Shown piece after piece: positions 10,561 through 45,000 of a DNA stretch of 64,000 nucleotides. Numbering within the stretch: position 1 is the first letter of the stretch; every line of letters starts with the position of its first letter. Under the pieces are notes generated by a model. The model was not told the origin of the DNA. It saw only the letters and a list, made by a program, of their open reading frames with translations, and did no database searches. Position numbers and translations under genes: made by a program. This DNA comes from Crossaster papposus (taxonomy: Eukaryota > Echinodermata > Asteroidea > Velatida > Solasteridae): NCBI GenBank assembly GCA_037893245.1, contig JBAIAA010000653.1:1240001-1304000 (forward strand), in the 5' to 3' direction.

Positions 10561-13500
10561 GTGTGCACAAAAACCTATGGCGAATTTGAAACGCGTGTGT
10601 TAACGTTAACATTTTCAGAAAATCGAAATAAAATACTAACAAAGCATGCCCCGGGTCAAATTGCTAATTTTGCCATTCCTGTGGAGGCCCCCTCTATCTC
10701 CTAACACCCAGCCCCTTCCCGGGGCATGCTTTCCTTCATGCCCTTATTTGTGGGCGGGGATTGTGTGCACAAACCTATGGCGAATTTGAAACGCGTGTGT
10801 TAACGTTGACATTTTCAGAAAATCGAAATAAAATACTAACAAAGCATGCCCCGGGTCAAATTGATAATTTTGCCATTCCTGGAGGCCCCCCTCTATCTCC
10901 TAACACCCAGCCCCTTCCCGGGGCATGCTTTCCTTCATGCCCTTATTTGTGGGCGGGGATTGTGTGCACAAACCTATGGCGAATTTGAAACGCGTGTGTT
11001 AACGTTAACATTTTCAGAAAATCGAAATAAAATACTAACAAAGCATGCCCCGGGTCAAATTGCTAATTTTGCCATTCCTGGAGGCCCCCCTCTATCTCCT
11101 AACACCCAGCCCCTTCTCGGGGCATGCTTTCCTTCATGCCCTTATTTGTGGGCGGGGATTGTGTGCACAAACCTATGGCGAAATGAAACGCGTGTGTTAA
11201 CGTTAAAATTTTCAGAAAATCGAAATAAAATACTAACAAAGCATTCCCCGGGTCAAATTGCTAATTTTGCCATTCCTGGAGGCCCCCCTCTATCTCCTAA
11301 CACCCAGCCCCTTCCCGGGGCATGCTTTCCTTCATGCCCTTATTTGTGGGCGGGGATTGTGTGCACAAACCTATGGCGAATTTGAAACGCGTGTGTTAAC
11401 GTTAACAATTTCAGAAAATCGAAATAAAATACTAGCAAAGCATGCCCCGGGTCAAATTGCTAATTTTGCCATTCCTGGAGGCCCCCCTCTATCTCCTAAC
11501 ACCCAGCCCCTTCCCGGGGCATGCTTTCCTTCATGCCCTTATTTGTGGGCGGGGATTGTGTGCACAAACCTATGGCGAATTTGAAACGCGTGTGTTAACG
11601 TTAACATTTTCAGAAAATCGAAATAAAATACTAGCAAAGCATGCCCCGGGTCAAATTGCTAATTTTGCCATTCCTGGAGGCCCCCCTCTATCTCCTAACA
11701 CCCAGCCCCTTCCCGGGGCATGCTTTCCTTCATGCCCTTATTTGTGGGCGGGGATTGTGTGCACAAACCTATGGCGAATTTGAAACGCGTGTGTTAACGT
11801 TACAATTTACAGAAAATCGAAATAAAATACTAACAAAGCATGCCCCGGGTCAAATTGCAAATTTTGCCATTCCTGTGGAGGCCCCCTCTATCTCCTAACA
11901 CCCAGCCCCTTCCCGGGGCATGCTTTCCTTCAAGCCCTTATTTGTGGGCGGGGATTGTGTGCACAAACCTATGGCGAATTTGAAACGCGTGTGTTAACGT
12001 TAACATTTTCAGAAAATCGAAATAAAATACTAACAAAGCATGCCCCGGGTCAAATTGCTAATTTTGCCATTCCTGTGGAGGCCCCCTCTATCTCCTAACA
12101 CCCAGCCCCTTCCCGGGGCATGCTGTCCTTCATGCCCTTATTTGTGGGCGGGGATTGTGTGCACAAACCTATGGCGAATTTGAAACGCGTGTGTTAACGT
12201 TGACATTTTCAGAAAATCGAAATAAAATACTAACAAAGCATGCCCCGGGTCAAATTGCTAATTTTGCCATTCCTGGAGGCCCCCCTCTATCTCCTAACAC
12301 CCAGCCCCTTCCCGGGGCATGCTTTCCTTCATGCCCTTATTTGTGGGCGGGGATTGTGTGCACAAACCTATGGCGAATTTGAAACGCGTGTGTTAACGTT
12401 AAAATGTTCAGAAAATCGAAATAAAATGCTAACAAAGCATGCCCCGGGTCAAATTGCAAATTTTTCCATTCCTGGAGGCCCCCCTCTATCTCCTAACACC
12501 CAGCCCCTTCCCGGGGCATGCTTTCCTTCATGCCCTTATTTGTGGGCGGGGATTGTGTGCACAAACCTATGGCGAATTTGAAACGCGTGTGTTAACGTTA
12601 ACATTTTCAGAAAATCGAAATAAAATACTAACAAAGCATGCCCCGGGTCAAATTGCTAATTTTGCCCTTCCTGGAGGCCCCCCTCTATCTCCTAACACCC
12701 AGCCCCTTCCCGGGGCATGCTTTCCTTCATGCCCTTATTTGTGGGCGGGGATTGTGTGCACAAACCTATGGCGAATTTGAAACGCGTGTGTTAACGTTAA
12801 CATTTTCAGAAAATCGAAATAAAATACTAACAAAGCATGCCCCGGGTCAAATTGCAAATTTTGCCATTCCTGGAGGCCCCCCTCTATCTCCTAACACCCA
12901 GCCCCTTCTCGGGGCATGCTTTCCTTCATGCCCTTATTTGTGGGCGGGGATTGTGTGCACAAACCTATGGCGAAATGAAACGCGTGTGTTAACGTTAAAA
13001 TTTTCAGAAAATCGAAATAAAATACTAACAAAGCATTCCCCGGGTCAAATTGCTAATTTTGCCATTCCTGGAGGCCCCCCTCTATCTCCTAACACCCAGC
13101 CCCTTCCCGGGGCATGCTTTCCTTCATGCCCTTATTTGTGGGCGGGGATTGTGTGCACAAACCTATGGCGAATTTGAAACGCGTGTGTTAACGTTACAAT
13201 TTACAGAAAATCGAAATAAAATACTAACAAAGCATGCCCCGGGTCAAATTGCAAATTTTGCCATTCCTGTGGCGGCCCCCTCTATCTCCTAACACCCAGC
13301 CCCTTCCCGGGGCATGCTTTCCTTCAAGCCCTTATTTGTGGGCGGGGATTGTGTGCACAAACCTATGGCGAATTTGAAACGCGTGTGTTAACGTTAACAT
13401 TTTCAGAAAATCGAAATAAAATACTAACAAAGCATGCCCCGGGTCAAATTGCTAATTTTGCCATTCCTGTTGAGGCCCCCTCTATCTCCTAACACCCAGC

Positions 13501-13749
13501 CCCTTCCCGGGGCATGCTTTCCTTCATGCCCTTATTTGTGGGCGGGGATTGTGTGCACAAACCTATGGCGAATTTGAAACGCGTGTGTTAACGTTAACAT
13601 TTTCAGAAAATCGAAATAAAATACTAACAAAGCATGCCCCGGGTCAAATTGCTAATTTTGCCATTCCTGGAGGCCCCCCTCTATCTCCTAACACCCAGCC
13701 CCTTCCCGGGGCATGCTTTCCTTCATGCCCTTATTTGTGGGCGGGGATT
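10561..13749. repeat. 16-mer higher-order repeat, copy B (3189 bp)
   Basis: Direct tandem copy of 7372-10560. The only difference I noticed by eye is TTGATAATTT at about 10861 against TTGCTAATTT at 7672. The end is set where the four-A CACAAAAACC of the copy start is not repeated: near 13750 the sequence has the ordinary CACAAACC. Such near-identity points to a recent duplication event, by unequal crossover or replication-based copying. Confidence 0.9.
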
Positions 13750-16700
13750 GTGTGCACAAACCTATGGCGAATTTGAAACGCGTGTGTTAACGTTAAAATG
13801 TTCAGAAAATCGAAATAAAATGCTAACAAAGCATGCCCTGGGTCAAATTGCAAATTTTTCCATTCCTGGAGGCCCTCCTCTATCTCCTAACACTCAGCCC
13901 CTTCCCGGGGCATGCTTTCCTTCATGCCCTTATTTGTGGGCGGGGATTGTGTGCACAAACCTATGGCGAATTTGAAACGCGTGTGTTAACGTTAACATTT
14001 TCAGAAAATCGAAATAAAATACTAACAAAGCATGCCCCGGGTCAAATTGCTAATTTTGCCATTCCTGGAGGCCCCCCTCTATCTCCTAACACCCAGCCCC
14101 TTCCCGGGGCATGCTTTCCTTCATGCCCTTATTTGTTGGCGGGGATTGTGTGCACAAACCTATGGTGAATTTGAAACGCGTGTGTTAACATTACAATTTT
14201 CAGAAAATCGAAATAAAATACTAACAAAGCATGCCCCGGGTCAAATTGCAAATTTTGCCATTCCTGGAGGCCCCCCTCTATCTCCTAACACCCAGCCCCT
14301 TCCCGGGGCATGCTTTCCTTCATGCCCTTATTTGTGGGCGGGGATTGTGTGCACAAACCTATGGCGAATTTGAAACGCGTGTGTTAACGTTAACATTTTC
14401 AGAAAATCGAAATAAAATACAAACAAAGCATGCCCCGGGTCAAATTGCTAATTTTGCCATTCCTGGAGGCCCCCCTATATCTCCTAACACCCAGCCCCTT
14501 CCCGGGGCATGCTTTCCTTCATGCCCTTATTTGTGGGCGTGGATTGTGTGCACAAACCTATGGCGAATTTGAAACGCGTGTGTTAACGTTAACATTTTCA
14601 GAAAATCGAAATAAAATACTAACAAAGCATGCCCCGGGTCAAATTGCTAATTTTGCCCTTCCTGGAGGCCCCCCTCTATCTCCTAACACCCAGCCCCTTC
14701 CCGGGGCATGCTTTCCTTCATGCCCTTATTTGTGGGCGGGGATTGTGTGCACAAACCTATGGCGAATTTGAAACGCGTGTGTTAACGTTAACATTTTCAG
14801 AAAATCTAAATAAAATACTAACAAAGCATGCCCCGGGTCAAATTGCTAATTTTGCCATTCCTGGAGGCCCCCCTCTATCTCCTAACACCCAGCCCCTTCT
14901 CGGGGCATGCTTTCCTTCATGCCCTTATTTGTGGGCGGGGATTGTGTGCACAAACCTATGGCGAAATGAAACGCGTGTGTTAACGTTAACATTTTCAGAA
15001 AATCGAAATAAAATACTAACAAAGCATTCCCCGGGTCAAATTGCTAATTTTGCCATTCCTGGAGGCCCCCCTCTATCTCCTAACACCCAGCCCCTTCCCG
15101 GGGCATGCTTTCCTTCATGCCCTTATTTGTGGGCGGGGATTGTGTGCACAAACCTATGGCGAATTTGAAACGCGTGTGTTAACGTTAACAATTTCAGAAA
15201 ATCGAAATAAAATACTAGCAAAGCATGCCCCGGGTCAAATTGCTAATTTTGCCATTCCTGGAGGCCCCCCTCTATCTCCTAACACCCAGCCCCTTCCCGG
15301 GGCATGCTTTCCTTCATGCCCTTATTTGTGGGCGGGGATTGTGTGCACAAACCTATGGCGAATTTGAAACGCGTGTGTTAACGTTAACATTTTCAGAAAA
15401 TCGAAATAAAATACTAACAAAGCATGCCCCGGGTCAAATTGCTAATTTTGCCATTCCTGTGGAGGCCCCCTCTATCTCCTAACACCCAGCCCCTTCCCGG
15501 GGCATGCTTTCCTTCATGCCCTTATTTGTGGGCGGGGATTGTGTGCACAAACCTATGGCGAATTTGAAACGCGTGTGTTAACGTTAACATTTTCAGAAAA
15601 TCGAAATAAAATACTAACAAAGCATGCCCCGGGTCAAATTGCTAATTTTGCCATTCCTGGAGGCCCCCCTCTATCTCCTAACACCCAGCCCCTTCCCGGG
15701 GCATGCTTTCCTTCATGCCCTTATTTGTTGGCGGGGATTGTGTGCACAAACCTATGGCGAATTTGAAACGCGTGTGTTAACGTTACAATTTTCAGAAAAT
15801 CGAAATAAAATACTAACAAAGCATGCCCCGGGTCAAATTGCAAATTTTGCCATTCCTGGAGGCCCCCCTCTATCTCCTAACACCCAGCCCCTTCCCGGGG
15901 CATGCTTTCCTTCATGCCCTTATTTGTGGGCGGGGATTGTGTGCACAAACCTATGGCGAATTTGAAACGCGTGTGTTAACGTTAACATTTTCAGAAAATC
16001 GAAATAAAATACTAACAAAGCATGCCCCGGGTCAAATTGCTAATTTTGCCATTCCTGGAGGCCCCCCTATATCTCCTAACACCCAGCCCCTTCCCGGGGC
16101 ATGCTTTCCATCATGCCCTTATTTGTGGGCGTGGATTGTGTGCACAAACCTATGGCGAATTTGAAACGCGTGTGTTAACGTTAACATTTTCAGAAAATCG
16201 AAATAAAATACTAACAAAGCATGCCCCGGGTCAAATTGCTAATTTTGCCCTTCCTGGAGGCCCCCCTCTATCTCCTAACACCCAGCCCCTTCCCGGGGCA
16301 TGCTTTCATTCATGCCCTTATTTGTGGGCGGGGATTGTGTGCACAAACCTATGGCGAATTTGAAACGCGTGTGTTAACGTTAACATTTTCAGAAAATCTA
16401 AATAAAATACTAACAAAGCATGCCCCGGGTCAAATTGCTAATTTTGCCATTCCTGGAGGCCCCCCTCTATCTCCTAACACCCAGTCCCTTCCCGGGGCAT
16501 GCTTTCCTTCATGCCCTTATTTGTGGGCGGGGATTGTGTGCACAAACCTATGGCGAAATGAAACGCGTGTGTTAACGTTAACATTTTCAGAAAATCGAAA
16601 TAAAATACTAACAAAGCATTCCCCGGGTCAAATTGCTAATTTTGCCATTCCTGGAGGCCCCCCTCTATCTCCTAACACCCAGCCCCTTCCCGGGGCATGC

Positions 16701-18720
16701 TTTCCTTCATGCCCTTATTTGTGGGCGGGGATTGTGTGCACAAACCTATGGCGAATTTGAAACGCGTGTGTTAACGTTACAATTTACAGAAAATCGAAAT
16801 AAAATACTAACAAAGCATGCCCAGGGTCAAATTGCAAATTTTGCCATTCCTGTGGAGGCCCCCTCTATCTCCTAACACCCAGCCCCTTCCCGGGGCATGC
16901 TTTCCTTCAAGCCCTTATTTGTGGGCGGGGATTGTGTGCACAAACCTATGGCGAATTTGAAACGCGTGTGTTAACGTTAACATTTTCAGAAAATCGAAAT
17001 AAAATACTAACAAAGCATGCCCCGGGTCAAATTGCTAATTTTGCCATTCCTGTGGAGGCCCCCTCTATCTCCTAACACCCAGCCCCTTCCCGGGGCATGC
17101 TTTCCTTCATGCCCTTATTTGTGGGCGGGGATTGTGTGCACAAACCTATGGCGAATTTGAAACGCGTGTGTTAACGTTAACATTTTCAGAAAATCGAAAT
17201 AAAATACTAACAAAGCATGCCCCGGGTCAAATTGCTAATTTTGCCATTCCTGGAGGCCCCCCTCTATCTCCTAACACCCAGCCCCTTCCCGGGGCATGCT
17301 TTCCTTCATGCCCTTATTTGTGGGCGGGGATTGTGTGCACAAACCTATGGCGAATTTGAAACGCGTGTGTTAACGTTAAAATGTTCAGAAAATCGAAATA
17401 AAATGCTAACAAAGCATGCCCCGGGTCAAATTGCAAATTTTTCCATTCCTGGAGGCCCCCCTCTATCTCCTAACACTCAGCCCCTTCCCGGGGCATGCTT
17501 TCCTTCATGCCCTTATTTGTGGGCGGGGATTGTGTGCACAAACCTATGGCGAATTTGAAACGCGTGTGTTAACGTTAACATTTTCAGAAAATCGAAATAA
17601 AATACTAACAAAGCATGCCCCGGGTCAAATTGCTAATTTTGCCATTCCTGGAGGCCCCCCTCTATCTCCTAACACCCAGCCCCTTCCCGGGGCATGCTTT
17701 CCTTCATGCCCTTATTTGTTGGCGGGGATTGTGTGCACAAACCTATGGCGAATTGGAAACGCGTGTGTTAACGTTACAATTTTCAGAAAATCGAAATAAA
17801 ATACTAACAAAGCATGCCCCGGGTCAAATTGCAAATTTTGCCTTTCCTGGAGGCCCCCCTCTATCTCCTAACACCCAGCCCCTTCCCGGGGCATGCTTTC
17901 CTTCATGCCCTTATTTGTGGGCGGGGATTGTGTGCACAAACCTATGGCGAATTTGAAACGCGTGTGTTAACGTTAACATTTTCAGAAAATCGAAATAAAA
18001 TACTAACAAAGCATGCCCCGGGTCAAATTGCTAATTTTGCCATTCCTGGAGGCCCCCCTATATCTCCTAACACCCAGCCCCTTCCCGGGGCATGCTTTCC
18101 TTCATGCCCTTATTTGTGGGCGTGGATTGTGTGCACAAACCTATGGCGAATTTGAAACGCGTGTGTTAACGTTAACATTTTCAGAAAATCGAAATAAAAT
18201 ACTAACAAAGCATGCCCCGGGTCAAATTGCTAATTTTGCCATTCCTGGAGGCCCCCCTCTATCTCCTAACACCCAGCCCCTTCCCGGGGCATGCTTTCCT
18301 TCATGCCCTTATTTGTGGGCGGGGATTGTGTGCACAAACCTATGGCGAATTTGAAACGCGTGTGTTAACGTTAACAATTTCAGAAAATCGAAATAAAATA
18401 CTAGCAAAGCATGCCCCGGGTCAAATTGCTAATTTTGCCATTCCTGGAGGCCCCCCTCTATCTCCTAACACCCAGCTCCTTCCCGGGGCATGCTTTCCTT
18501 CATGCCCTTATTTGTGGGCGGGGATTGTGTGCACAAACCTATGGCGAATTTGAAACGCGTGTGTTAACGTTAACATTTTCAGAAAATCGAAATAAAATAC
18601 TAACAAAGCATGCCCCTGGTCAAATTGCTAATTTTGCCATTCCTGTGGAGGCCCCCTCTATCTCCTAACACCCAGCCCCTTCCCGGGGCATGCTTTCCTT
18701 CATGCCCTTATTTGTGGGCG
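13750..18720. repeat. Sat-B interior domain left of the 5-mer pair
   Basis: About 25 monomers of mixed subtype within super-duplication copy 1. Typical variants are TTTGTTGGCGGGG (about 14136, 15727, 17718), the GGGCGTGG monomers with CCCTATATCTCC, GCCCTTCCTGG, and AAAATCTAAATAAA. The two-base-shorter marker monomers are at 14961 and 16553. No break in the tandem order is visible. Confidence 0.75.
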
Positions 18721-19714
18721 GGGATTGTGTGCACAAACCTATGGCGAATTTGAAACGCGTGTGTTAACGTTAACATTTTCAGAAAATCGAAATAAAATAC
18801 TAACAAAGCATGCCCCGGGTCAAATTGCTAATTTTGCCATTCCTGGAGGCCCCCCTCTATCTCCTAACACCCAGCCCCTTCCCGGGGCATGCTTTCCTTC
18901 ATGCCCTTATTTGTGGGCGTGGATTGTGTGCACAAACCTATGGCGAATTTGAAACGCGTGTGTTAACGTTAACATTTTCAGAAAATCGAAATAAAATACT
19001 AACAAAGCATGCCCCGGGTCAAATTGCTAATTTTGCCCTTCCTGGAGGCCCCCCTCTATCTCCTAACACCCAGCCCCTTCCCGGGGCATGCTTTCCTTCA
19101 TGCCCTTATTTGTGGGCGGGGATTGTGTGCACAAACCTATGGCGAATTTGAAACGCGTGTGTTAACGTTAACATTTTCAGAAAATCTAAATAAAATACTA
19201 ACAAAGCATGCCCCGGGTCAAATTGCTAATTTTGCCATTCCTGGAGGCCCCCCTCTATCTCTTAACACCCAGCCCCTTCTCGGGGCATGCTTTCCTTCAT
19301 GCCCTTATTTGTGGGCGGGGATTGTGTGCACAAACCTATGGCGAAATGAAACGCGTGTGTTAACGTTAACATTTTCAGAAAATCGAAATAAAATACTAAC
19401 AAAGCATTCCCCGGGTCAAATTGCTAATTTTGCCATTCCTGGAGGCCCCCCTCTATCTCCTAACACCCAGCCCCTTCCCGGGGCATGCTTTCCTTCATGC
19501 CCTTATTTGTGGGCGGGGATTGTGTGCACAAACCTATGGCGAATTTGAAACGCGTGTGTTAACGTTAACATTTTCAGAAAATCGAAATAAAATACTAACA
19601 AAACATGCCCCTGGTCAAATTGCTAATTTTGCCATTCCTGTGGAGGCCCCCTCTATCTCCTAACACCCAGCCCCTTCCCGGGGCATGCTTTCCTTCATGC
19701 CCTTATTTGTGGGC
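18720..19714. repeat. 5-mer higher-order repeat, copy A (995 bp)
   Basis: A five-monomer block repeated immediately at 19715-20709. Both copies share GGGCGTGG, GCCCTTCCTGG, AAAATCTAAATAAA with CTATCTCTTAACACC, the shorter GCGAAATG monomer (19341 and 20336) and AAAACATGCCCCTGGTC (about 19601 and 20596). I saw no difference between the copies. The left edge is approximate. Confidence 0.85.
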
Positions 19715-20709
19715 GGGGATTGTGTGCACAAACCTATGGCGAATTTGAAACGCGTGTGTTAACGTTAACATTTTCAGAAAATCGAAATAAAATACTAACA
19801 AAGCATGCCCCGGGTCAAATTGCTAATTTTGCCATTCCTGGAGGCCCCCCTCTATCTCCTAACACCCAGCCCCTTCCCGGGGCATGCTTTCCTTCATGCC
19901 CTTATTTGTGGGCGTGGATTGTGTGCACAAACCTATGGCGAATTTGAAACGCGTGTGTTAACGTTAACATTTTCAGAAAATCGAAATAAAATACTAACAA
20001 AGCATGCCCCGGGTCAAATTGCTAATTTTGCCCTTCCTGGAGGCCCCCCTCTATCTCCTAACACCCAGCCCCTTCCCGGGGCATGCTTTCCTTCATGCCC
20101 TTATTTGTGGGCGGGGATTGTGTGCACAAACCTATGGCGAATTTGAAACGCGTGTGTTAACGTTAACATTTTCAGAAAATCTAAATAAAATACTAACAAA
20201 GCATGCCCCGGGTCAAATTGCTAATTTTGCCATTCCTGGAGGCCCCCCTCTATCTCTTAACACCCAGCCCCTTCTCGGGGCATGCTTTCCTTCATGCCCT
20301 TATTTGTGGGCGGGGATTGTGTGCACAAACCTATGGCGAAATGAAACGCGTGTGTTAACGTTAACATTTTCAGAAAATCGAAATAAAATACTAACAAAGC
20401 ATTCCCCGGGTCAAATTGCTAATTTTGCCATTCCTGGAGGCCCCCCTCTATCTCCTAACACCCAGCCCCTTCCCGGGGCATGCTTTCCTTCATGCCCTTA
20501 TTTGTGGGCGGGGATTGTGTGCACAAACCTATGGCGAATTTGAAACGCGTGTGTTAACGTTAACATTTTCAGAAAATCGAAATAAAATACTAACAAAACA
20601 TGCCCCTGGTCAAATTGCTAATTTTGCCATTCCTGTGGAGGCCCCCTCTATCTCCTAACACCCAGCCCCTTCCCGGGGCATGCTTTCCTTCATGCCCTTA
20701 TTTGTGGGC
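19715..20709. repeat. 5-mer higher-order repeat, copy B (995 bp)
   Basis: Tandem copy of 18720-19714. A four-monomer derivative follows at an offset of 796 bp: the shorter marker monomer recurs at 21132, but the GCCCTTCCTGG monomer is missing. A whole monomer was therefore lost on the next cycle. Confidence 0.85.
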
Positions 20710-21699
20710 GGGGATTGTGTGCACAAACCTATGGCGAATTTGAAACGCGTGTGTTAACGTTAACATTTTCAGAAAATCGAAATAAAATACTAACAAAGCA
20801 TGCCCCGGGTCAAATTGCTAATTTTGCCATTCCTGGAGGCCCCCCTCTATCTCCTAACACCCAGCCCCTTCCCGGGGCATGCTTTCCTTCATGCCCTTAT
20901 TTGTGGGCGTGGATTGTGTGCACAAACCTATGGCGAATTTGAAACGCGTGTGTTAACGTTAACATTTTCAGAAAATCTAAATAAAATACTAACAAAGCAT
21001 GCCCCGGGTCAAATTGCTAATTTTGCCATTCCTGGAGGCCCCCCTCTATCTCCTAAAACCCAGCCCCTTCTCGGGGCATGCTTTCCTTCATGCCCTTATT
21101 TGTGGGCGGGGATTGTGTGCACAAACCTATGGCGAAATGAAACGCGTGTGTTAACGTTAACATTTTCAGAAAATCGAAATAAAATACTAACAAAGCATTC
21201 CCCGGGTCAAATTGCTAATTTTGCCATTCCTGGAGGCCCCCCTCTATCTCCTAACACCCAGCCCCTTCCCGGGGCATGCTTTCCTTCATGCCCTTATTTG
21301 TGGGCGGGGATTGTGTGCACAAACCTATGGCGAATTTGAAACGCGTGTGTTAACGTTAACATTTTCAGAAAATCGAAATAAAATACTAGCAAAGCATGCC
21401 CCGGGTCAAATTGCTAATTTTGCCATTCCTGGAGGCCCCCCTCTATCTCCTAACACCCAGCCCCTTCCCGGGGCATGCTTTCCTTCATGCCCTTATTTGT
21501 GGGCGGGGATTGTGTGCACAAACCTATGGCGAATTTGAAACGCGTGTGTTAACGTTAACAGTTTCAGAAAATCGAAATAAAATACTAACAAAGCATGCCC
21601 CGGGTCAAATTGGTAATTTTGCCATTCCTGGAGGCCCCCCTCTATCTCCTAACACCCAGCCCCTTCCCGGGGCATGCTTTCCTTCATGCCCTTATTTGT

Positions 21700-21719
21700 G
21701 GGGGGGGGGGGGGGGGGGG
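21700..21719 (+). repeat. G run of 20
   Basis: The GC box (GTGGGCGGGGATT) of this monomer is replaced by GT followed by 20 G and ATTGTGTG. It sits in a TTGGTAATTTT monomer. Its counterpart in the second super-copy, at 37462, is 25 G. Confidence 0.9.
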
Positions 21720-22905: not shown

Positions 22906-22921
22906 GGGGGGGGGGGGGGGG
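22906..22921 (+). repeat. G run of 16
   Basis: Same position in the monomer as the other runs. It is in a TTGGTAATTTT monomer that begins with CAATTTTCAG rather than ACAGTTTCAG, so the run sits on a recombinant monomer background. Confidence 0.9.
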
Positions 22922-24903: not shown

Positions 24904-24924
24904 GGGGGGGGGGGGGGGGGGGGG
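24904..24924 (+). repeat. G run of 21
   Basis: In an ACAGTTTCAG / TTGGTAATTTT monomer, followed by the CCCAGGGCATGC monomer. The likely counterparts at 38872 and 40470 have 13 and 14 G. Confidence 0.9.
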
Positions 24925-31700: not shown

Positions 31701-34700
31701 GATTGTGTGCACAAACCTATGGCGAATTTGAAACGCGTGTGTTAACGTTAACATTTTCAGAAAATCGAAATAAAATACTAACAAAGCATGCCCCGGGTCA
31801 AATTGCTAATTTTGCCATTCCTGGAGGCCCCCCTCTATCTCCTAACACCCAGCCCCTTCCCGGGGCATGCTTTCCTTCATGCCCTTATTTGTTGGCGGGG
31901 ATTGTGTGCACAAACCTATGGCGAATTTGAAACGCGTGTGTTAACGTTACAATTTTCAGAAAATCGAAATAAAATACTAACAAAGCATGCCCCGGGTCAA
32001 ATTGCAAATTTTGCCATTCCTGGAGGCCCCCCTCTATCTCCTAACACCCAGCCCCTTCCCGGGGCATGCTTTCCTTCATGCCCTTATTTGTGGGCGGGGA
32101 TTGTGTGCACAAACCTATGGCGAATTTGAAACGCGTGTGTTAACGTTAACATTTTCAGAAAATCGAAATAAAATACTAACAAAGCATGCCCCGGGTCAAA
32201 TTGCTAATTTTGCCATTCCTGGAGGCCCCCCTATATCTCCTAACACCCAGCCCCTTCCCGGGGCATGCTTTCCTTCATGCCCTTATTTGTGGGCGTGGAT
32301 TGTGTGCACAAACCTATGGCGAATTTGAAACGCGTGTGTTAACGTTAACATTTTCAGAAAATCGAAATAAAATACTAACAAAGCATGCCCCGGGTCAAAT
32401 TGCTAATTTTGCCCTTCCTGGAGGCCCCCCTCTATCTCCTAACACCCAGCCCCTTCCCGGGGCATGCTTTCATTCATGCCCTTATTTGTGGGCGGGGATT
32501 GTGTGCACAAACCTATGGCGAATTTGAAACGCGTGTGTTAACGTTAACATTTTCAGAAAATCTAAATAAAATACTAACAAAGCATGCCCCGGGTCAAATT
32601 GCTAATTTTGCCATTCCTGGAGGCCCCCCTCTATCTCCTAACACCCAGCCCCTTCCCGGGGCATGCTTTCCTTCATGCCCTTATTTGTGGGCGGGGATTG
32701 TGTGCACAAACCTATGGCGAAATGAAACGCGTGTGTTAACGTTAACATTTTCAGAAAATCGAAATAAAATACTAACAAAGCATTCCCCGGGTCAAATTGC
32801 TAATTTTGCCATTCCTGGAGGCCCCCCTCTATCTCCTAACACCCAGCCCCTTCCCGGGGCATGCTTTCCTTCATGCCCTTATTTGTGGGCGGGGATTGTG
32901 TGCACAAACCTATGGCGAATTTGAAACGCGTGTGTTAACGTTACAATTTACAGAAAATCGAAATAAAATACTAACAAAGCATGCCCAGGGTCAAATTGCA
33001 AATTTTGCCATTCCTGTGGAGGCCCCCTCTATCTCCTAACACCCAGCCCCTTCCCGGGGCATGCTTTCCTTCAAGCCCTTATTTGTGGGCGGGGATTGTG
33101 TGCACAAACCTATGGCGAATTTGAAACGCGTGTGTTAACGTTAACATTTTCAGAAAATCGAAATAAAATACTAACAAAGCATGCCCCGGGTCAAATTGCT
33201 AATTTTGCCATTCCTGTGGAGGCCCCCTCTATCTCCTAACACCCAGCCCCTTCCCGGGGCATGCTTTCCTTCATGCCCTTATTTGTGGGCGGGGATTGTG
33301 TGCACAAACCTATGGCGAATTTGAAACGCGTGTGTTAACGTTAACATTTTCAGAAAATCGAAATAAAATACTAACAAAGCATGCCCCGGGTCAAATTGCT
33401 AATTTTGCCATTCCTGGAGGCCCCCCTCTATCTCCTAACACCCAGCCCCTTCCCGGGGCATGCTTTCCTTCATGCCCTTATTTGTGGGCGGGGATTGTGT
33501 GCACAAACCTATGGCGAATTTGAAACGCGTGTGTTAACGTTAAAATGTTCAGAAAATCGAAATAAAATGCTAACAAAGCATGCCCCGGGTCAAATTGCAA
33601 ATTTTTCCATTCCTGGAGGCCCCCCTCTATCTCCTAACACTCAGCCCCTTCCCGGGGCATGCTTTCCTTCATGCCCTTATTTGTGGGCGGGGATTGTGTG
33701 CACAAACCTATGGCGAATTTGAAACGCGTGTGTTAACGTTAACATTTTCAGAAAATCGAAATAAAATACTAACAAAGCATGCCCCGGGTCAAATTGCTAA
33801 TTTTGCCATTCCTGGAGGCCCCCCTCTATCTCCTAACACCCAGCCCCTTCCCGGGGCATGCTTTCCTTCATGCCCTTATTTGTTGGCGGGGATTGTGTGC
33901 ACAAACCTATGGCGAATTTGAAACGCGTGTGTTAACGTTACAATTTTCAGAAAATCGAAATAAAATACTAACAAAGCATGCCCCGGGTCAAATTGCAAAT
34001 TTTGCCATTCCTGGAGGCCCCCCTCTATCTCCTAACACCCAGCCCCTTCCCGGGGCATGCTTTCCTTCATGCCCTTATTTGTGGGCGGGATTGTGTGCAC
34101 AAACCTATGGCGAATTTGAAACGCGTGTGTTAACGTTAACATTTTCAGAAAATCGAAATAAAATACTAACAAAGCATGCCCCGGGTCAAATTGCTAATTT
34201 TGCCATTCCTGGAGGCCCCCCTATATCTCCTAACACCCAGCCCCTTCCCGGGGCATGCTTTCCTTCATGCCCTTATTTGTGGGCGTGGATTGTGTGCACA
34301 AACCTATGGCGAATTTGAAACGCGTGTGTTAACGTTAACATTTTCAGAAAATCGAAATAAAATACTAACAAAGCATGCCCCGGGTCAAATTGCTAATTTT
34401 GCCCTTCCTGGAGGCCCCCCTCTATCTCCTAACACCCAGCCCCTTCCCGGGGCATGCTTTCCTTCATGCCCTTATTTGTGGGCGGGGATTGTGTGCACAA
34501 ACCTATGGCGAATTTGAAACGCGTGTGTTAACGTTAACATTTTCAGAAAATCTAAATAAAATACTAACAAAGCATGCCCCGGGTCAAATTGCTAATTTTG
34601 CCATTCCTGGAGGCCCCCCTCTATCTCCTAACACCCAGCCCCTTCTCGGGGCATGCTTTCCTTCATGCCCTTATTTGTGGGCGGGGATTGTGTGCACAAA

Positions 34701-36904
34701 CCTATGGCGAAATGAAACGCGTGTGTTAACGTTAACATTTTCAGAAAATCGAAATAAAATACTAACAAAGCATTCCCCGGGTCAAATTGCTAATTTTGCC
34801 ATTCCTGGAGGCCCCCCTCTATCTCCTAACACCCAGCCCCTTCCCGGGGCATGCTTTCCTTCATGCCCTTATTTGTGGGCGGGGATTGTGTGCACAAACC
34901 TATGGCGAATTTGAAACGCGTGTGTTAACGTTAACAATTTCAGAAAATCGAAATAAAATACTAGCAAAGCATGCCCCGGGTCAAATTGCTAATTTTGCCA
35001 TTCCTGGAGGCCCCCCTCTATCTCCTAACACCCAGCCCCTTCCCGGGGCATGCTTTCCTTCATGCCCTTATTTGTGGGCGGGGATTGTGTGCACAAACCT
35101 ATGGCGAATTTGAAACGCGTGTGTTAACGTTAACATTTTCAGAAAATCGAAATAAAATACTAACAAAGCATGCCCCTGGTCAAATTGCTAATTTTGCCAT
35201 TCCTGTGGAGGCCCACTCTATCTCCTAACACCCAGCCCCTTCCCGGGGCATGCTTTCCTTCATGCCCTTATTTGTGGGCGGGGATTGTGTGCACAAACCT
35301 ATGGCGAATTTGAAACGCGTGTGTTAACGTTAACATTTTCAGAAAATCGAAATAAAATACTAACAAAGCATTCCCCGGGTCAAATTGCTAATTTTGCCAT
35401 TCCTGGAGGCCCCCCTCTATCTCCTAACACCCAGCCCCTTCCCGGGGCATGCTTTCCTTCATGCCCTTATTTGTGGGCGGGGATTGTGTGCACAAACCTA
35501 TGGCGAATTTGAAACGCGTGTGTTAACGTTAACATTTTCAGAAAATCGAAATAAAATACTAACAAAGCATGCCCCGGGTCAAATTGCTAATTTTGCCATT
35601 CCTGGAGGCCCCCCTCTATCTCCTAACACCCAGCCCCTTCCCGGGGCATGCTTTCCTTCATGCCCTTATTTGTGGGCGTGGATTGTGTGCACAAACCTAT
35701 GGCGAATTTGAAACGCGTGTGTTAACGTTAACATTTTCAGAAAATCGAAATAAAATACTAACAAAGCATGCCCCGGGTCAAATTGCTAATTTTGCCCTTC
35801 CTGGAGGCCCCCCTCTATCTCCTAACACCCAGCCCCTTCCCGGGGCATGCTTTCCTTCATGCCCTTATTTGTGGGCGGGGATTGTGTGCACAAACCTATG
35901 GCGAATTTGAAACGCGTGTGTTAACGTTAACATTTTCAGAAAATCGAAATAAAATACTAACAAAGCATGCCCCGGGTCAAATTGCTAATTTTGCCATTCC
36001 TGGAGGCCCCCCTCTATCTCTTAACACCCAGCCCCTTCTCGGGGCATGCTTTCCTTCATGCCCTTATTTGTGGGCGGGGATTGTGTGCACAAACCTATGG
36101 CGAAATGAAACGCGTGTGTTAACGTTAACATTTTCAGAAAATCGAAATAAAATACTAACAAAGCATTCCCCGGGTCAAATTGCTAATTTTGCCATTCCTG
36201 GAGGCCCCCCTCTATCTCCTAACACCCAGCCCCTTCCCGGGGCCTGCTTTCCTTCATGCCCTTATTTGTGGGCGGGGATTGTGTGCACAAACCTATGGCG
36301 AATTTGAAACGCGTGTGTTAACTTTAACATTTTCAGAAAATCTAAATAAAATACTAACAAAGCATGCCCCGGGTCAAATTGCTAATTTTGCCATTCCTGG
36401 AGGCCCCCCTCTATCTCCTAACACCCAGCCCCTTCTCGGGGCATGCTTTCCTTCATGCCCTTATTTGTGGGCGGGGATTGTGTGCACAAACCTATGGCGA
36501 AATGAAACGCGTGTGTTAACGTTAACATTTTCAGAAAATCGAAATAAAATACTAACAAAGCATTCCCCGGGTCAAATTGCTAATTTTGCCATTCCTGGAG
36601 GCCCCCCTCTATCTCCTAACACCCAGCCCCTTCCCGGGGCATGCTTTCCTTCATGCCCTTATTTGTGGGCGGGGATTGTGTGCACAAACCTATGGCGAAT
36701 TTGAAACGCGTGTGTTAACTTTAACATTTTCAGAAAATCTAAATAAAATACTAACAAAGCATGCCCCGGGTCAAATTGCTAATTTTGCCATTCCTGGAGG
36801 CCCCCCTCTATCTCCTAACACCCAGCCCCTTCTCGGGGCATGCTTTCCTTCATGCCCTTATTTGTGGGCGGGGATTGTGTGCACAAACCTATGGCGAAAT
36901 GAAA
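28736..36904. repeat. Second cluster of 198-bp frame-marker monomers
   Basis: The two-base-shorter GCGAAATGAAAC monomers occur at about 28736, 31125, 32717, 34707, 36100, 36497 and 36894, and nowhere after that. The last three are only two monomers apart (397 bp), showing a local dimer amplification with AACTTTAACATT at about 36319 and 36716. The first cluster is at 6593, 7989, 9781, 11178, 12970, 14961, 16553, 19341, 20336 and 21132. Confidence 0.85.
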
Positions 36905-37461
36905 CGCGTGTGTTAACGTTAACATTTTCAGAAAATCGAAATAAAATACTAACAAAGCATTCCCCGGGTCAAATTGCTAATTTTGCCATTCCTGGAGGCC
37001 CCCCTCTATCTCCTAACACCCAGCCCCTTCCCGGGGCATGCTTTCCTTCATGCCCTTATTTGTGGGCGGGGATTGTGTGCACAAACCTATGGCGAATTTG
37101 AAACGCGTGTGTTAACGTTAACATTTTCAGAAAATCGAAATAAAATACTAGCAAAGCATGCCCCGGGTCAAATTGCTAATTTTGCCATTCCTGGAGGCCC
37201 CCCTCTATCTCCTAACACCCAGCCCCTTCCCGGGGCATGCTTTCCTTCATGCCCTTATTTGTGGGCGGGGATTGTGTGCACAAACCTATGGCGAATTTGA
37301 AACGCGTGTGTTAACGTTAACAGTTTCAGAAAATCGAAATAAAATACTAACAAAGCATGCCCCGGGTCAAATTGGTAATTTTGCCATTCCTGGAGGCCCC
37401 CCTCTATCTCCTAACACCCAGCCCCTTCCCGGGGCATGCTTTCCTTCATGCCCTTATTTGT

Positions 37462-37486
37462 GGGGGGGGGGGGGGGGGGGGGGGGG
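37462..37486 (+). repeat. G run of 25
   Basis: This is the longest run in the window. It is in the counterpart of the 21700 monomer (ACAGTTTCAG, TTGGTAATTTT). The extra 5 bases explain the step in offset from 15762 to 15767. Confidence 0.9.
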
Positions 37487-38871
37487 ATTGTGTGCACAAA
37501 CCTATGGCGAATTTGAAACGCGTGTGTTAACGTTAACATTTTCAGAAAATCGAAATAAAATACTAACAAAGCATGCCCCGGGTCAAATTGCTAATTTTGC
37601 CATTCCTGGAGGCCCCCCTCTATCTCCTAACACCCAGCCCCTTCCCAGGGCATGCTTTCCTTCATGCCCTTATTTGTGGGCGGGGATTGTGTGCACAAAC
37701 CTATGGCGAATTTGAAACGCGTGTGTTAACGTTAACATTTTCAGAAAATCGAAATAAAATACTAACAAAGCATGCCCCGGGTCAAATTGCTAATTTTGCC
37801 ATTCCTGGAGGCCCCCTTCTATCTCCTAACACCCAGCCCCTTCCCGGGGCATGCTTTCCTTCATGCCCTTATTTGTGGGCGGGGATTGTGTGCACAAACA
37901 TATGGCGAATTTGAAACGCGTGTGTTAACGTTAAAATGTTCAGAAAATCGAAATAAAATACTAACAAAGCATGCCCCGGGTCAAATTGCTAATTTTGCCA
38001 TTCCTGGAAGCCCCCCTCTATCTCCTAACACCCAGCCCCTTCCTGGGGCATGCTTTCCTTCATGCCCTTATTTGTGGGCGGGGATTGTGTGCACAAACCT
38101 ATTGCGAATTTGAAACGCGTGTGTTAACGTTAACATTTTCAGAAAATCGAAATAAAATACTAACAAAGCATGCCCCGGGTGAAATTGCTAATTTTGCCAT
38201 TCCTGGAGGCCCCCCTCTATCTCCTAACACCCATCCCCTTCCCGGGGCATGCTTTCCTGCATGCCCTTATTTGTGGGCGGGGATTGTGTGCACAAACCTA
38301 TGGCGAATTTGAAACGCGTGTGTTAACGTTAAAAGTTTCAGAAAATCGAAATAAAATACTAACAAAGCATGCCCCGGGTCAAATTGCTAATTTTGCCATT
38401 CCTGGAGGCCCCCCTCTATCTCCTAACACCCAGCCCCTTCCCGTGGCATGCTTTCCTTCATGCCCTTATTTGTGGGCGGGGATTGTGTGCACAAACCTAT
38501 GGCGAATTTGAAACGCGTGTGTTAACGTTACAATTTTCAGAAAATCGAAATAAAATACTAACAAAGCATGCCCCGGGTCAAATTGCTAATTTTGCCATTC
38601 CTGGAGGCCCCCTTCTATCTCCTAACACCCAGCCCCTTCCCGGGGCATGCTTTCCTTCATGCCCTTATTTGTGGGCGGGGATTGTGTGCACAAACCTATG
38701 GCGAATTTGAAACGCGTGTGTTAACGTTAACAGTTTCAGAAAATCGAAATAAAATACTAACAAAGCATGCCCCGGGTCAAATTGGTAATTTTGCCATTCC
38801 TGGAGGCCCCCCTCTATCTCCTAACACCCAGCCCCTTCCCGGGGCATGCTTTCCTTCATGCCCTTATTTGT

Positions 38872-38884
38872 GGGGGGGGGGGGG
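38872..38884 (+). repeat. G run of 13
   Basis: In an ACAGTTTCAG / TTGGTAATTTT monomer followed by the CCCAGGGCATGC monomer. Confidence 0.9.
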
Positions 38885-40469
38885 ATTGTGTGCACAAACC
38901 TATGGCGAATTTGAAACGCGTGTGTTAACGTTAACATTTTCAGAAAATCGAAATAAAATACTAACAAAGCATGCCCCGGGTCAAATTGCTAATTTTGCCA
39001 TTCCTGGAGGCCCCCCTCTATCTCCTAACACCCAGCCCCTTCCCAGGGCATGCTTTCCTTCATGCCCTTATTTGTGGGCGGGGATTGTGTGCACAAACCT
39101 ATGGCGAATTTGAAACGCGTGTGTTAACGTTAACATTTTCAGAAAATCGAAATAAAATACTAACAAAGCATGCCCCGGGTCAAATTGCTAATTTTGCCAT
39201 TCCTGGAGGCCCCCTTCTATCTCCTAACACCCAGCCCCTTCCCGGGGCATGCTTTCCTTCATGCCCTTATTTGTGGGCGGGGATTGTGTGCACAAACATA
39301 TGGCGAATTTGAAACGCGTGTGTTAACGTTAAAATGTTCAGAAAATCGAAATAAAATACTAACAAAGCATGCCCCGGGTCAAATTGCTAATTTTGCCATT
39401 CCTGGAAGCCCCCCTCTATCTCCTAACACCCAGCCCCTTCCTGGGGCATGCTTTCCTTTATGCCCTTATTTGTGGGCGGGGATTGTGTGCACAAACCTAT
39501 GGCGAATTTGAAACGCGTGTGTTAACGTTAACATTTTCAGAAAATCGAAATAAAATAATAACAAAACATGCCCCGGGTCAAATTGCTAATTTTGCCATTC
39601 CTGGAAGCCCCCCTCTATCTCCTAACACCCAGCCCCTTCCTGGGGCATGCTTTCCTTCATGCCCTTATTTGTGGGCGGGGATTGTGTGCACAAACCTATT
39701 GCGAATTTGAAACGCGTGTGTTAACGTTAACATTTTCAGAAAATCGAAATAAAATACTAACAAAGCATGCCCCGGGTGAAATTGCTAATTTTGCCATTCC
39801 TGGAGGCCCCCCTCTATCTCCTAACACCCAGCCCCTTCCCGGGGCATGCTTTCCTGCATGCCCTTATTTGTGGGCGGGGATTGTGTGCACAAACCTATGG
39901 CGAATTTGAAACGCGTGTGTTAACGTTAAAAGTTTCAGAAAATCGAAATAAAATACTAACAAAGCATGCCCCGGGTCAAATTGCTAATTTTGCCATTCCT
40001 GGAGGCCCCCCTCTATCTCCTAACACCCAGCCCCTTTCCCGTGGCATGCTTTCCTTCATGCCCTTATTTGTGGGCGGGGATTGTGTGCACAAACCTATGG
40101 CGAATTTGAAACGCGTGTGTTAACGTTACAATTTTCAGAAAATCGAAATAAAATACTAACAAAGCATGCCCCGGGTCAAATTGCTAATTTTGCCATTCCT
40201 GGAGGCCCCCTTCTATCTCCTAACACCCAGCCCCTTCCCGGGGCATGCTTTCCTTCATGCCCTTATTTGTGGGCGGGGATTGTGTGCACAAACCTATGGC
40301 GAATTTGAAACGCGTGTGTTAACGTTAACAGTTTCAGAAAATCGAAATAAAATACTAACAAAGCATGCCCCGGGTCAAATTGGTAATTTTGCCATTCCTG
40401 GAGGCCCCCCTCTATCTCCTAACACCCAGCCCCTTCCCGGGGCATGCTTTCCTTCATGCCCTTATTTGT

Positions 40470-40483
40470 GGGGGGGGGGGGGG
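40470..40483 (+). repeat. G run of 14
   Basis: In an ACAGTTTCAG / TTGGTAATTTT monomer. The next monomer has CCCAGGGCATGC joined directly to ACATATGGCG, so one monomer of the cassette seen elsewhere is missing here. Confidence 0.9.
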
Positions 40484-42067
40484 ATTGTGTGCACAAACCT
40501 ATGGCGAATTTGAAACGCGTGTGTTAACGTTAACATTTTCAGAAAATCGAAATAAAATACTAACAAAGCATGCCCCGGGTCAAATTGCTAATTTTGCCAT
40601 TCCTGGAGGCCCCCCTCTATCTCCTAACACCCAGCCCCTTCCCAGGGCATGCTTTCCTTCATGCCCTTATTTGTGGGCGGGGATTGTGTGCACAAACATA
40701 TGGCGAATTTAAAACGCGTGTGTTAACGTTAAAATGTTCAGAAAATCGAAATAAAATACTAACAAAGCATGCCCCGGGTCAAATTGCTAATTTTGCCATT
40801 CCTGGAAGCCCCCCTCTATCTCCTAACACCCAGCCCCTTCCTGGGGCATGCTTTCCTTCATGCCCTTATTTGTGGGCGGGGATTGTGTGCACAAACCTAT
40901 GGCGAATTTGAAACGCGTGTGTTAACGTTAACATTTTCAGAAAATCGAAATAAAATACTAACAAAGCATGCCCCGGGTGAAATTGCTAATTTTGCCATTC
41001 CTGGAGGCCCCCCTCTATCTCCTAACACCCAGCCCCTTCCCGGGGCATGCTTTCCTGCATGCCCATATTTGTGGGCGGGGATTGTGTGCACAAACCTATG
41101 GCGAATTTGAAACGCGTGTGTTAACGTTAAAAGTTTCAGAAAATCGAAATAAAATACTAACAAAGCATGCCCCGGGTCAAATTGCTAATTTTGCCATTCC
41201 TGGAGGCCCCCCTCTATCTCCTAACACCCAGCCCCTTCCCGTGGCATGCTTTCCTTCATGCCCTTATTTGTGGGCGGGGATTGTGTGCACAAACCTATGG
41301 CGAATTTGAAACGCGTGTGTTAACGTTACAATTTTCAGAAAATCGAAATAAAATACTAACAAAGCATGCCCCGGGTCAAATTGCTAATTTTGCCATTCCT
41401 GGAGGCCCCCCTCTATCTCCTAACACCCAGCCCCTTCCCGGGGCATGCTTTCCTTCATGCCCTTATTTGTGGGCGGTGATTGTGTGCACAAACCTATGGC
41501 GAATTTGAAACGCGTGTGTTAACGTTAACATTTTCAGAAAATCGAAATAAAATACTAACAAAGCATGCCCCGGGTCAAATTGCTAATTTTGCCATTCCTG
41601 GAGGCCCCCCTCTATCTCCTAACACCCAGCCCCTTCCCGGGGCATGCTTTCCTTCATGCCCTTATTTGTGGGCGGGGATTGTGTGCACAAACCTATGGCG
41701 AATTTGAAACGCGTGTGTTAACGTTAACATTTTCAGAAAATCGAAATAAAATACTAACAAAGCATGCCCCGGGTCAAATTGCTAATTTTGCCATTCCTGG
41801 AGGCCCCCCTCTATCTCCTAACACCCAGCCCCCTCCCGGGGTATGCTTTCTTTCATGCCCTTATTTGTGGGCGGGGATTGTGTGCACAAACCTATGGCGA
41901 ATTTGAAACGCGTGTGTTAACGTTAAAATTTTCAGAAAATCGAAATAAAATACTAACAAAGCATGCCCCGGGTCAAATTGCTAATTTTGCCATTCCTGGA
42001 GGCCCCCCTCTATCTCCTAACACCCAGCCCCTTCCCGGGGCATGCTTTCCTTCATGCCCTTATTTGT

Positions 42068-42082
42068 GGGGGGGGGGGGGGG
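42068..42082 (+). repeat. G run of 15
   Basis: Counterpart of the 26708 run (18 G). The following monomer has TCAATTTGC and CCCTTTTATCTCC, as in copy 1. Confidence 0.9.
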
Positions 42083-45000
42083 ATTGTGTGCACAAACCTA
42101 TGGCGAATTTGAAACGCGTGTGTTAACGTTAACATTTTCAGAAAATCGAAATAAAATACTAACAAAGCATGCCCCGGGTCAATTTGCTAATTTTGCCATT
42201 CCTGGAGGCCCCCTTTTATCTCCTAACACCCAGCCCCTTTCCGGGGCATGCTTTCCTTCATGCCCTTATTTGTGGGCGGGGATTGTGTGCACAAACATAT
42301 GGCGAATTTGAAACGCGTGTGTTAACGTTAAAATGTTCAGAAAATCGAAATAAAATACTAACAAAGCATGCCCCGGGTCAAATTGCTAATTTTGCCATTC
42401 CTGGAAGCCCCCCTCTATCTCCTAACACCCAGCCCCTTCCTGGGGCATGCTTTCCTTCATGCCCTTATTTGTGGGCGGGGATTGTGTGCACAAACCTATG
42501 GCGAATTTGAAACGCGTGTGTTAACGTTAACATTTTCAGAAAATCGAAATAAAATACTAACAAAGCATGCCCCGGGTGAAATTGCTAATTTTGCCATTCC
42601 TGGAGGCCCCCCTCTATCTCCTAACACCCAGCCCCTTCCCGGGGCATGCTTTCCTGCATGCCCTTATTTGTGGGCGGGGATTGTGTGCACAAACCTATGG
42701 CGAATTTGAAACGCGTGTGTTAACGTTAAAAGTTTCAGAAAATCGAAATAAAATACTAACAAAGCATGCCCCGGGTCAAATTGCTAATTTTGCCATTCCT
42801 GGAGGCCCCCCTCTATCTCCTAACACCCAGCCCCTTCCCGTGGCATGCTTTCCTTCATGCCCTTATTTGTGGGCGGGGATTGTGTGCACAAACCTATGGC
42901 GAATTTGAAACGCGTGTGTTAACGTTACAATTTTCAGAAAATCGAAATAAAATACTAACAAAGCATGCCCCGGGTCAAATTGCTAATTTTGCCATTCCTG
43001 GAGGCCCCCCTCTATCTCCTAACACCCAGCCCCTTCCCGGGGCATGCTTTCCTTCATGCCCTTATTTGTGGGCGGGGATTGTGTGCACAAACCTATGGCG
43101 AATTTGAAATGCGTGTGTTAACGTTAACATTTTCAGAAAATCGAAATAAAATACTAACAAAGCATGCCCCGGGTCAAATTGCTAATTTTGCCATTCCTGG
43201 AGGCCCCCCTCTATCTCCTAACACCCAGCCCCTTCCCGGGGCATGCTGTCCTTCATGCCCTTATTTGTGGGCGGGGATTGTGTGCACAAACCTATGTCGA
43301 ATTTGAAACGCGTGTGTTAACGTTAACATTTTCAGAAAATCGAAATAAAATACTAACAAAGCATGCCCGGGTCAAATTGCTAATTTTGCCATTCCTGGAG
43401 GCCCCCCTCTATCTCCTAACACCCAGCCCCCTCCCGGGGTATGCTTTCCTTCATGCCCTTATTTGTGGGCGGGGATTGTGTGCACAAACCTATGGCGAAT
43501 TTGAAACGCGTGTGTTAACGTTACAATTTTCAGAAAATCAAAATAAAATACTAACAAAGCATGCCCCGGGTCAAATTGCTAATTTTGCCATTCCTGGAGG
43601 CCCCCCTCTATCTCCTAACACCCAGCCCCTTCCCGGGGCATGCTTTCCTTCATGCCCTTATTTGTGGGCGGGGATTGTGTGCACAAACCTATGGCGAATT
43701 TGAAACGCGTGTGTTAACGTTAACATTTTCAGAAAATCGAAATAAAATACTAACAAAGCATGCCCCGGGTCAAATTGCTAATTTTGCCATTCCTGGAGGC
43801 CCCCCTCTATCTCCTAACACCCAGCCCCTTCCCGGGGCATGCTTTCCTTCATGCCCTTATTTGTGGGCGGGGATTGTGTGCACAAACCTATGGCGAATTT
43901 GAAACGCGTGTGTTAACGTTACAATTTTCAGAAAATCGAAATAAAATACTAACAAAGCATGCCCCGGGTCAAATTGCTAATTTTGCCATTCCTGGAGGCC
44001 CCCCTCTATCTCCTAACACCCAGCCCCTTCCCGGGGCATGCTTTCCTTCATGCCCTTATTTGTGGGCGGGGATTGTGTGCACAAACCTATGGCGAATTTG
44101 AAACGCGTGTGTTAACGTTAACATTTTCAGAAAATCGAAATAAAATACTAACAAAGCATGCCCCGGCTCAAATTGCTAATTTTGCCATTCCTGGAGGCCC
44201 CACTCTATCTCCTAACACCCAGCCCCTTCCCGTGGCATGCTTTCCTTCATGCCCTTATTTGTGGGCGGGGATTGTGTGCACAAACCTATGGCGAATTTGA
44301 AACGCGTGTGTTAACGTTACAATTTTCAGAAAATCGAAATAAAATACTAACAAAGCATTCCCCGGATCAAATTGCTAATTTTGCCATTCCTGGAGGCCCC
44401 CCTCTATCTCCTAACACCCAGCCCCTTCCCGGGGCATGCTTTCCTTCATGCCCTTATTTGTGGGCGGGGATTGTGTGCACAAACCTATGGCGAATTTGAA
44501 ACGCGTGTGTTAACGTTAAAATTTTCAGAAAATCGAAATAAAATACTAACAAAGCATGCCCCGGGTCAAATTGCTAATTTTGCCATTCCTGGAGGCCCCC
44601 CTCTATCTCCTAACACCCAGCCCCTTCCCGGGGCATGCTTTCCTTCATGCCCTTATTTGTGGGCGGGGATTGTGTGCACAAACCTATGGCGAATTTGAAA
44701 CGCGTGTGTTAACGTTAACATTTTCAGAAAATCGAAATAAAATACTAACAAAGCATGCCCCGGGTCAAATTGCTAATTTTGCCATTCCTGGCGGCCCCCC
44801 TCTATCTCCTAACACCCAGCCCCCTCCCGGGGTATGCTTTCCTTCATGCCCTTATTTGTGGGCGGGGATTGTGTGCACAAACCTATGGCGAATTTGAAAC
44901 GCGTGTGTTAACGTTAACATTTTCAGAAAATCGAAATAAAATACTAACAAAGCATGCCCCGGGTCAAATTGCTAATTTTGCCATTCCTGGAGGCCCCCCT

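Follow-up and report, generated by a model that had tools for sequence, protein, structure and literature searches.

The stretch of DNA analyzed here (the window) comprises 64,000 nucleotides of Crossaster papposus contig JBAIAA010000653.1 (C653:1240001-1304000). It holds an array of a 199-bp satellite, in which a block of about 80 monomers, roughly 16 kb long, stands twice, side by side. The two copies are joined by a single recombinant monomer, and another contig of the same assembly, C341, carries the block once. Since the junction monomer is a chimera of the two block edges and C341 retains the single-copy state, the assembled sequence makes it very probable that this is a real, derived tandem duplication, produced by homologous exchange between arrays that were in register at the monomer level. 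All coordinates below refer to the forward strand of the window unless a contig is named, and genome-wide searches covered 1.02 Gb in 1841 contigs.

RESULTS

The window contains two adjacent copies of a 16-kb block

With each monomer coded as the set of its departures from the consensus, the array was aligned to itself as a string of such monomers. The best local self-alignment paired monomers 31 to 110 (12119-28083) with monomers 111 to 187 (28084-43439) and reached a score of 662, with 71 paired monomers, 48 of them identical, and 15 unpaired monomers. Paired monomers differ at a mean of 0.48 positions per 199 bp when G-run length is left out (99.76% identity). Taken with the junction described below, the alignment places copy 1 (80 monomers, 15,965 bp) at 11975-28040, each edge being known to about 101 bp, and copy 2 (77 monomers, 15,358 bp) at 27940-43398. 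The copies have the same orientation and meet at monomers 110 and 111 with nothing in between. A first-pass annotation of this DNA had proposed a super-duplication of about 16 kb at 12070-43360, made of two segments of about 80 monomers that keep the same order of private variants. These data confirm that proposal, since both positions fall within the 101-bp uncertainty of the edges and the shared order far exceeds that of shuffled arrays. The highest scores in 1000 shuffles were 82 when single monomers were shuffled and 170, 292, and 440 when blocks of 4, 8, and 16 monomers, respectively, were moved as units. Chance colinearity arising from local higher-order repeat (HOR) structure was therefore rejected.

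At the level of single bases, alignment of the whole blocks with cheap whole-monomer gaps gave 14 to 19 mismatches in 13.5 to 14.1 kb, depending on the costs chosen. Dearer gap costs raised this count to 47 to 78, a misleading result, as displaced monomers were then forced together; because ordinary gap costs have this effect, we relied on the monomer-string alignment and on low match weights. One 4.4-kb stretch, for which about eight differences had been counted by eye, aligned over 4,463 bases with 7 mismatches and a single indel of 1 bp. The offset between the copies had also been described as changing in steps near 199 or 398 bp and through G-run length. Seven clean indels of 199, 398, 397, 199, 199, 398, and 199 bp bear this out, beside one tangled spot, and all four paired G-runs differ in length.

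Like an HOR, the block is a multimonomer unit, and its copies resemble each other much more closely than the monomers within it do (0.48 versus 5.47 differences per monomer). It lacks the many repeats at a fixed period that also define an HOR: the 16-kb unit occurs only twice in the window, and shorter runs recur within it at a changing period.

The copies are joined by a recombinant monomer

The final monomer of copy 1, monomer 110 (27884-28083), has the composition 7G,56T,155+TG,162-. Base-by-base comparison identified it as an exact chimera that joins 7G,56T of the right-edge type of the block to 155+TG,162- of the left-edge type. Its last 144 bases equal left-edge monomer 30 (11919-12118; 15A,155+TG,162-), which has an identical monomer in C341. 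Its first 157 bases equal the C341 counterpart of right-edge monomer 187 (43242-43439; 7G,56T,125-,191C). That counterpart lacks the private 1-bp deletion, 125-, of monomer 187, and the match to monomer 187 itself extends over 127 bases. The exchange thus lies within 27940-28040, an interval of 101 bp that is identical in both parents.

No other monomer in the window unites the two edge types; monomers 14, 55, and 136, examined in the same way, are of the plain left-edge type. The junction monomer bears two diagnostic marks from each side, and a 113-base string across it (27,936-28,048) that includes marks from both sides is unique in the genome, its one match being the junction itself, while the string of the left-edge monomer has 126 matches. 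The junction is therefore a recombinant of both block edges within homologous sequence, which is a hallmark of non-allelic homologous exchange, as is the direct adjacency of two copies in the same orientation.

Contig C341 carries the block once

A third hallmark is an unduplicated array with both edges intact. The C341 stretch examined (1,733,001-1,775,000, reversed) was parsed into 177 monomers of the 199-bp satellite, beginning with two pieces at the junction with a 219-bp satellite. This junction, at about 1,767,880, matches the one in the window (5957), with a 19-bp deletion; on the 219-bp side, 1450 of 1452 bases are identical. From there, the C341 array shows the left edge of the block, (15A,155+TG,162-)(7G,84G), and the block once. 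The right edge follows without interruption as (68T)(7G,56T,191C)(1T,5A,86A)(198A)(85C,86A)(131C,166A), the order of window monomers 186 to 191 after copy 2. Three window monomers (15, 31, and 111) and 1 of the 177 C341 monomers combine 7G with 84G; 56T is likewise present in three window monomers (110, 187, and 239) and in a single C341 monomer. Two colinear segments were recovered, window monomers 1 to 107 with C341 monomers 2 to 101 and window monomers 111 to 241 with C341 monomers 23 to 174.

A second colinear pair connects C653 at about 1.736 to 1.748 Mb with C341 at about 1.330 to 1.344 Mb (58 pairs; mean, 1.21 differences), roughly 490 to 502 kb and 424 to 438 kb, respectively, from the satellite junctions. 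A stretch of a third contig, C806, had no match above the score cut in the C653 and C341 stretches. On both C653 and C341, a tandem repeat of an H1 gene and a 43-bp repeat lie beyond the far side of the 219-bp satellite. This shared layout supports the two contigs as counterparts, and C341 most likely represents the other haplotype.

Several features of these flanks were seen in passing. The H1 repeat has a tandem unit of about 1.82 kb (C653:1000001-1001000 and C341:2000001-2001000), and its gene is linker histone H1-like, with a 219-amino-acid (aa) open reading frame (ORF) that matches Pfam Linker_histone (E value, 3e-18). Among the best 40 matches listed, this repeat is present on C653, C341, and C233, past the 219-bp satellite as seen from the 199-bp array. 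The satellite of about 43 bp lies farther out than the H1 repeat, at C653:600001-601000 and C341:2364001-2365000. Adjoining the 199-bp array on C341, positions 1310001-1317377 are nonsatellite DNA that matches neither satellite; 199-bp repeats occur again at 1300001, and this segment may be an insertion in the array. In one 1-kb sample (C341:600001-601000), the 219-bp satellite has the orientation opposite to that at the 1.768-Mb junction, so the 199-bp array on C341 may be flanked by mirror-image 219-bp satellite.

The copies have diverged since the duplication

To date the duplication relative to C341, private changes were counted in the 51 monomers that aligned consistently three ways. Copy 1, copy 2, and C341 had 11, 11, and 58 private changes, respectively, 34 of the 58 falling in two C341 monomers (5 and 29 changes, the latter monomer being heavily deleted). 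Without these two badly aligned monomers the counts were 11, 10, and 24 (49 monomers), and without three more that touch a chimera, an indel, or the tangled spot they were 9, 5, and 19 (46 monomers). Each copy has thus gained roughly 5 to 11 private changes, besides losses and gains of whole monomers. In the 49-monomer set, 21 changes separate the copies, compared with 34 to 35 between C341 and either copy. The copies are closer to each other than to C341, and the duplication therefore postdates the C341 split. Assuming a clock, its age is 0.61 or 0.54 of the time since that split in the two cleaned sets and 0.32 when all 51 monomers are kept, estimates that gene conversion could shift.

Comparison with C341 also assigns several whole-monomer differences to one copy or the other. 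Monomers 115-116 and 143-144 of copy 2 are present in C341 and missing from copy 1, and monomer 33 of copy 1 is present in C341 and missing from copy 2; monomer 147 of copy 2 is found in neither copy 1 nor C341. Monomer self-comparison further revealed a nested duplication of 15 monomers with an offset of 3,189 bp. Its first copy lies at 7536-10522, and its second, at 10725-13711, spans the left edge of copy 1. The nested copies differ at no more than one position per monomer. Because the nested block shares a loss that marks copy 1, this duplication is probably younger than the 16-kb duplication.

A layer of monomer-scale turnover had been proposed as well, and the whole-monomer indels lend it support. 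Four monomers lying beside monomer-scale differences were each compared with the pair of monomers expected to have been fused there, and three of the four are exact chimeras with no residual difference. Monomer 84 (22680-22878) combines the 163-type and the 164-type at a 1-monomer difference, and monomer 168 (39447-39645) combines the 88-type and the 90-type at a 2-monomer difference. Monomer 61 (18091-18289), which combines the 142-type and the 144-type at a 2-monomer loss in copy 1, is the weakest case, its mark being a single position that sets it apart from the 142-type.

Changes in G-run length are tied to one substitution. C31G merges GGG and GGGG into one unbroken G-run, and window monomers with this change start at 21673, 22879, 24877, 26681, 37435, 38845, 40443, 42041, 50604, 54389, and 55591. 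Tandem Repeats Finder (TRF) and monomer comparison showed a run of 25 Gs (37462-37486) in one C31G monomer of copy 2; the run in its copy-1 partner is 5 Gs shorter. Among 1187 monomers parsed in five stretches, including ones on C653, C341, and C806, all 48 C31G monomers have 1 to 17 extra Gs at the site. The 1139 monomers without C31G include 8 with G inside insertions, none of them at the C31G site. Loss of one interrupting base thus seems to trigger growth of the G-run; common descent of the 48 monomers or homopolymer sequencing error could also underlie the pattern.

The window spans two satellites with no visible kinship

TRF placed a 219-bp satellite array at 1-5957, where it flanks the 199-bp array, and upstream on C653 this satellite was seen at all five places sampled, back to 1.100 Mb. 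The 199-bp array, delimited by TRF and by wraparound alignment to the consensus, occupies 5944-64000 and contains 292 monomers (the last one partial) that differ from the consensus at a mean of 3.4 positions. Random pairs of monomers differ at 5.47 positions (about 97.3% identity). The array extends past the window and was present in every C653 sample downstream, including a 1-kb sample at 1.847 Mb, near the end of the contig at 1.848 Mb. In a genome-wide search with one query, the 199-bp satellite had at least 125 matching pieces on at least 9 contigs. No kinship between the 199-bp and 219-bp monomers was seen, the best local scores being 15 and 14 (50 shuffles each: mean, near 16; maximum, 22).

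The monomer had no Rfam match, to a self-cleaving ribozyme or another RNA, at gathering scores. The 26 ORFs of at least 150 aa in the window, 19 of which are 179 aa long, are read as by-products of the repeat. The mammalian CENP-B box (consensus, NTTCGNNNNANNCGGGN) had no exact match in the window; this box is no general requirement for centromeric satellites. The 199-bp consensus contains a perfect inverted repeat, AAAGCATGCCCCGGG and CCCGGGGCATGCTTT, with 15 bases per arm and about 61 bases between the arms (for example, 20000-20013 and 20075-20088). One of two inverted-repeat stretches folded better than its shuffles (z = -4.1; the other, 0.6). The data make no case for selection on the arms, since these are as variable as the remainder of the monomer (4.7 versus 4.3 variant monomers per site). 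An exact 23-base string had no match in the genome_contigs and viral_contigs collections, and a 399-base query had none among plasmids and phages. Among open-licence PMC papers, we found none on the 199-bp satellite.

DISCUSSION

A single exchange accounts for the abutting copies, the one recombinant monomer between them, and the state of C341. In the sequence of events that we propose, two copies of the array, on sister chromatids or homologues, would have paired 80 monomers out of step and in phase within the monomer. A break would then have been repaired between the right-edge monomer (7G,56T,191C) and the left-edge monomer (15A,155+TG,162-), inside the 101 bases that are the same in both, through crossover or through onward copying from the out-of-step template. 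The product would carry the block twice, linked by one recombinant monomer. Point changes, changes in G-run length, and losses and gains of whole monomers, probably by the same kind of exchange at short range, would have followed, and the 3.2-kb nested duplication at the left edge probably arose afterwards. The unequal-crossover model of tandem repeats proposed by Smith in 1976 predicts the anatomy of one such long-step exchange, the length of the step not being set by the model itself; the duplication seen here does not conflict with it.

The first-pass annotation had pointed to long-range unequal exchange or replication-based copying. That interpretation is supported, with the chimeric junction monomer and the single-copy state on C341 speaking for in-register homologous exchange. 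The pathway of repair is less constrained, as the sequence does not tell crossover, break-induced replication, and annealing-based repair apart. Break-induced replication, in which a broken fork would re-enter the sister array about 80 monomers behind and recopy the block with no reciprocal crossover, is a branch of the proposed explanation rather than an alternative outside it, and it is a possible route, though not the one we would expect. It would also leave one recombinant junction, and such replication with out-of-register re-initiation has been argued to act in human centromeric arrays (PMC11034957). No sequence feature favors it over crossover. Private changes are no more numerous in copy 2 than in copy 1 (11 in each, or 5 versus 9 by the strictest count), where an error-prone copying tract might have raised them; there is thus no sign of error-prone copying, although the numbers are small.

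Annealing-based repair or alternative end joining is an unlikely source of the junction. Sister arrays would each have been broken at one of the two edges, and the ends joined at matching bases without strand invasion. The 101 identical bases far exceed microhomology, and the phase is kept exactly across the join; in an array so uniform, however, annealing of any kind would be likely to keep it.

An assembly artefact, in which reads from a single block or from both haplotypes were placed end to end, is improbable, young and repetitive as the array is. A repeated read path would give identical copies, whereas these differ at 14 to 19 bases, at the seven clean indels and the tangled spot, and in all four G-runs. 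Stacked haplotypes would put one copy near C341; instead, C341 differs from the two copies at 1.31 and 1.15 positions per monomer (65 pairs each), compared with 0.48 between the copies. The 101 bases shared by the parents would also hardly suffice for accurate long reads to be joined falsely, although noisy reads could still be.

The duplication might be old and C341 the derived state, because the same exchange could delete one copy and so bring back the single block. We consider this improbable as well, given that both C341 edge monomers stand in unbroken order and that the copies are mutually closer than either is to C341. Improbable, too, is the excision of an 80-monomer circle from a sister array and its reinsertion beside its origin, which likewise yields head-to-tail copies with one recombinant junction but needs two exchanges at matching places where one suffices.

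Several points weigh against in-register homologous exchange or reduce the force of the evidence for it. A lone chimera is weak evidence, since in 35 of 3944 random monomer triples a perfect chimera arose although neither parent was identical to it. The C341 array could be a paralogue and not an allele. At the monomer scale, monomer 75 failed as an indel chimera, with 2 unexplained differences, and no single exchange explains the tangled spot at 19484/36243. The authors who described similar CentC duplications in maize centromere 10 (CEN10) assign them to alternative end joining (PMC4806543). Finally, the evidence comes from the assembled sequence.

The maize report is one of the closest parallels. 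It describes an adjacent duplication of 10 monomers and, at a monomer loss, a chimeric monomer with a 28-base breakpoint tract, recognized by comparing two inbreds, as well as a separate 22.7-kb tandem duplication in CEN10 with a 5-base match, which the authors read as alternative end joining (PMC4806543). The Crossaster case resembles these in the side-by-side duplication of a run of satellite monomers and in the chimeric monomer. It differs in size (77 to 80 monomers rather than 10), in the 101 identical bases shared by the junction parents, and in that both parental monomers are found in a single-copy array of the same genome (PMC4806543). Homologous exchange is favored here, whereas the maize authors favor alternative end joining (PMC4806543).

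Human alpha-satellite arrays gain and lose HOR units between haplotypes (PMC11062924). The present case likewise shows the gain of a satellite block, probably between haplotypes, and here a single exchange suffices for the block and its one junction. For human centromeric arrays, out-of-register break-induced replication has been proposed and tested, and copy-number change is reported to need RAD52 and PIF1 (PMC11034957). Under that model many repeats would be gained in tandem, with a single junction that is in phase, as seen here; the human data concern copy number in dividing cells (PMC11034957), whereas ours concern the sequence outcome only. The human study also cites the Smith model (PMC11034957).

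The kind of event described here is already known, and the present case is a clear, well-resolved new example of a known process. Gains of tens of kilobases in satellite arrays are often inferred from blocks of identity, with the parental state and the junction missing. Here the parental array, the recombinant monomer, and the later decay can be read together, giving the step size, the breakpoint homology, and a relative age, along with a first look at monomer-scale indels versus substitutions. The duplication is a well-anchored test case worth keeping, and a set of such cases would allow sequence-only tests of crossover, replication-based, and end-joining models.

A second super-duplication lies in the same array at C653:1742026-1763828. 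It has a unit of roughly 23 to 29 monomers in three or more copies, with 67 paired monomers and a mean of 0.33 differences. We suggest tentatively, at somewhat under even odds, that the satellite arrays of this genome grow partly by single long steps of tens of monomers, with the states before (C341) and after (C653) one such step preserved in one individual and the exchange placed within 101 bp. Given the second case, these arrays may lengthen chiefly through long-step copying of blocks rather than through turnover of one monomer at a time alone.

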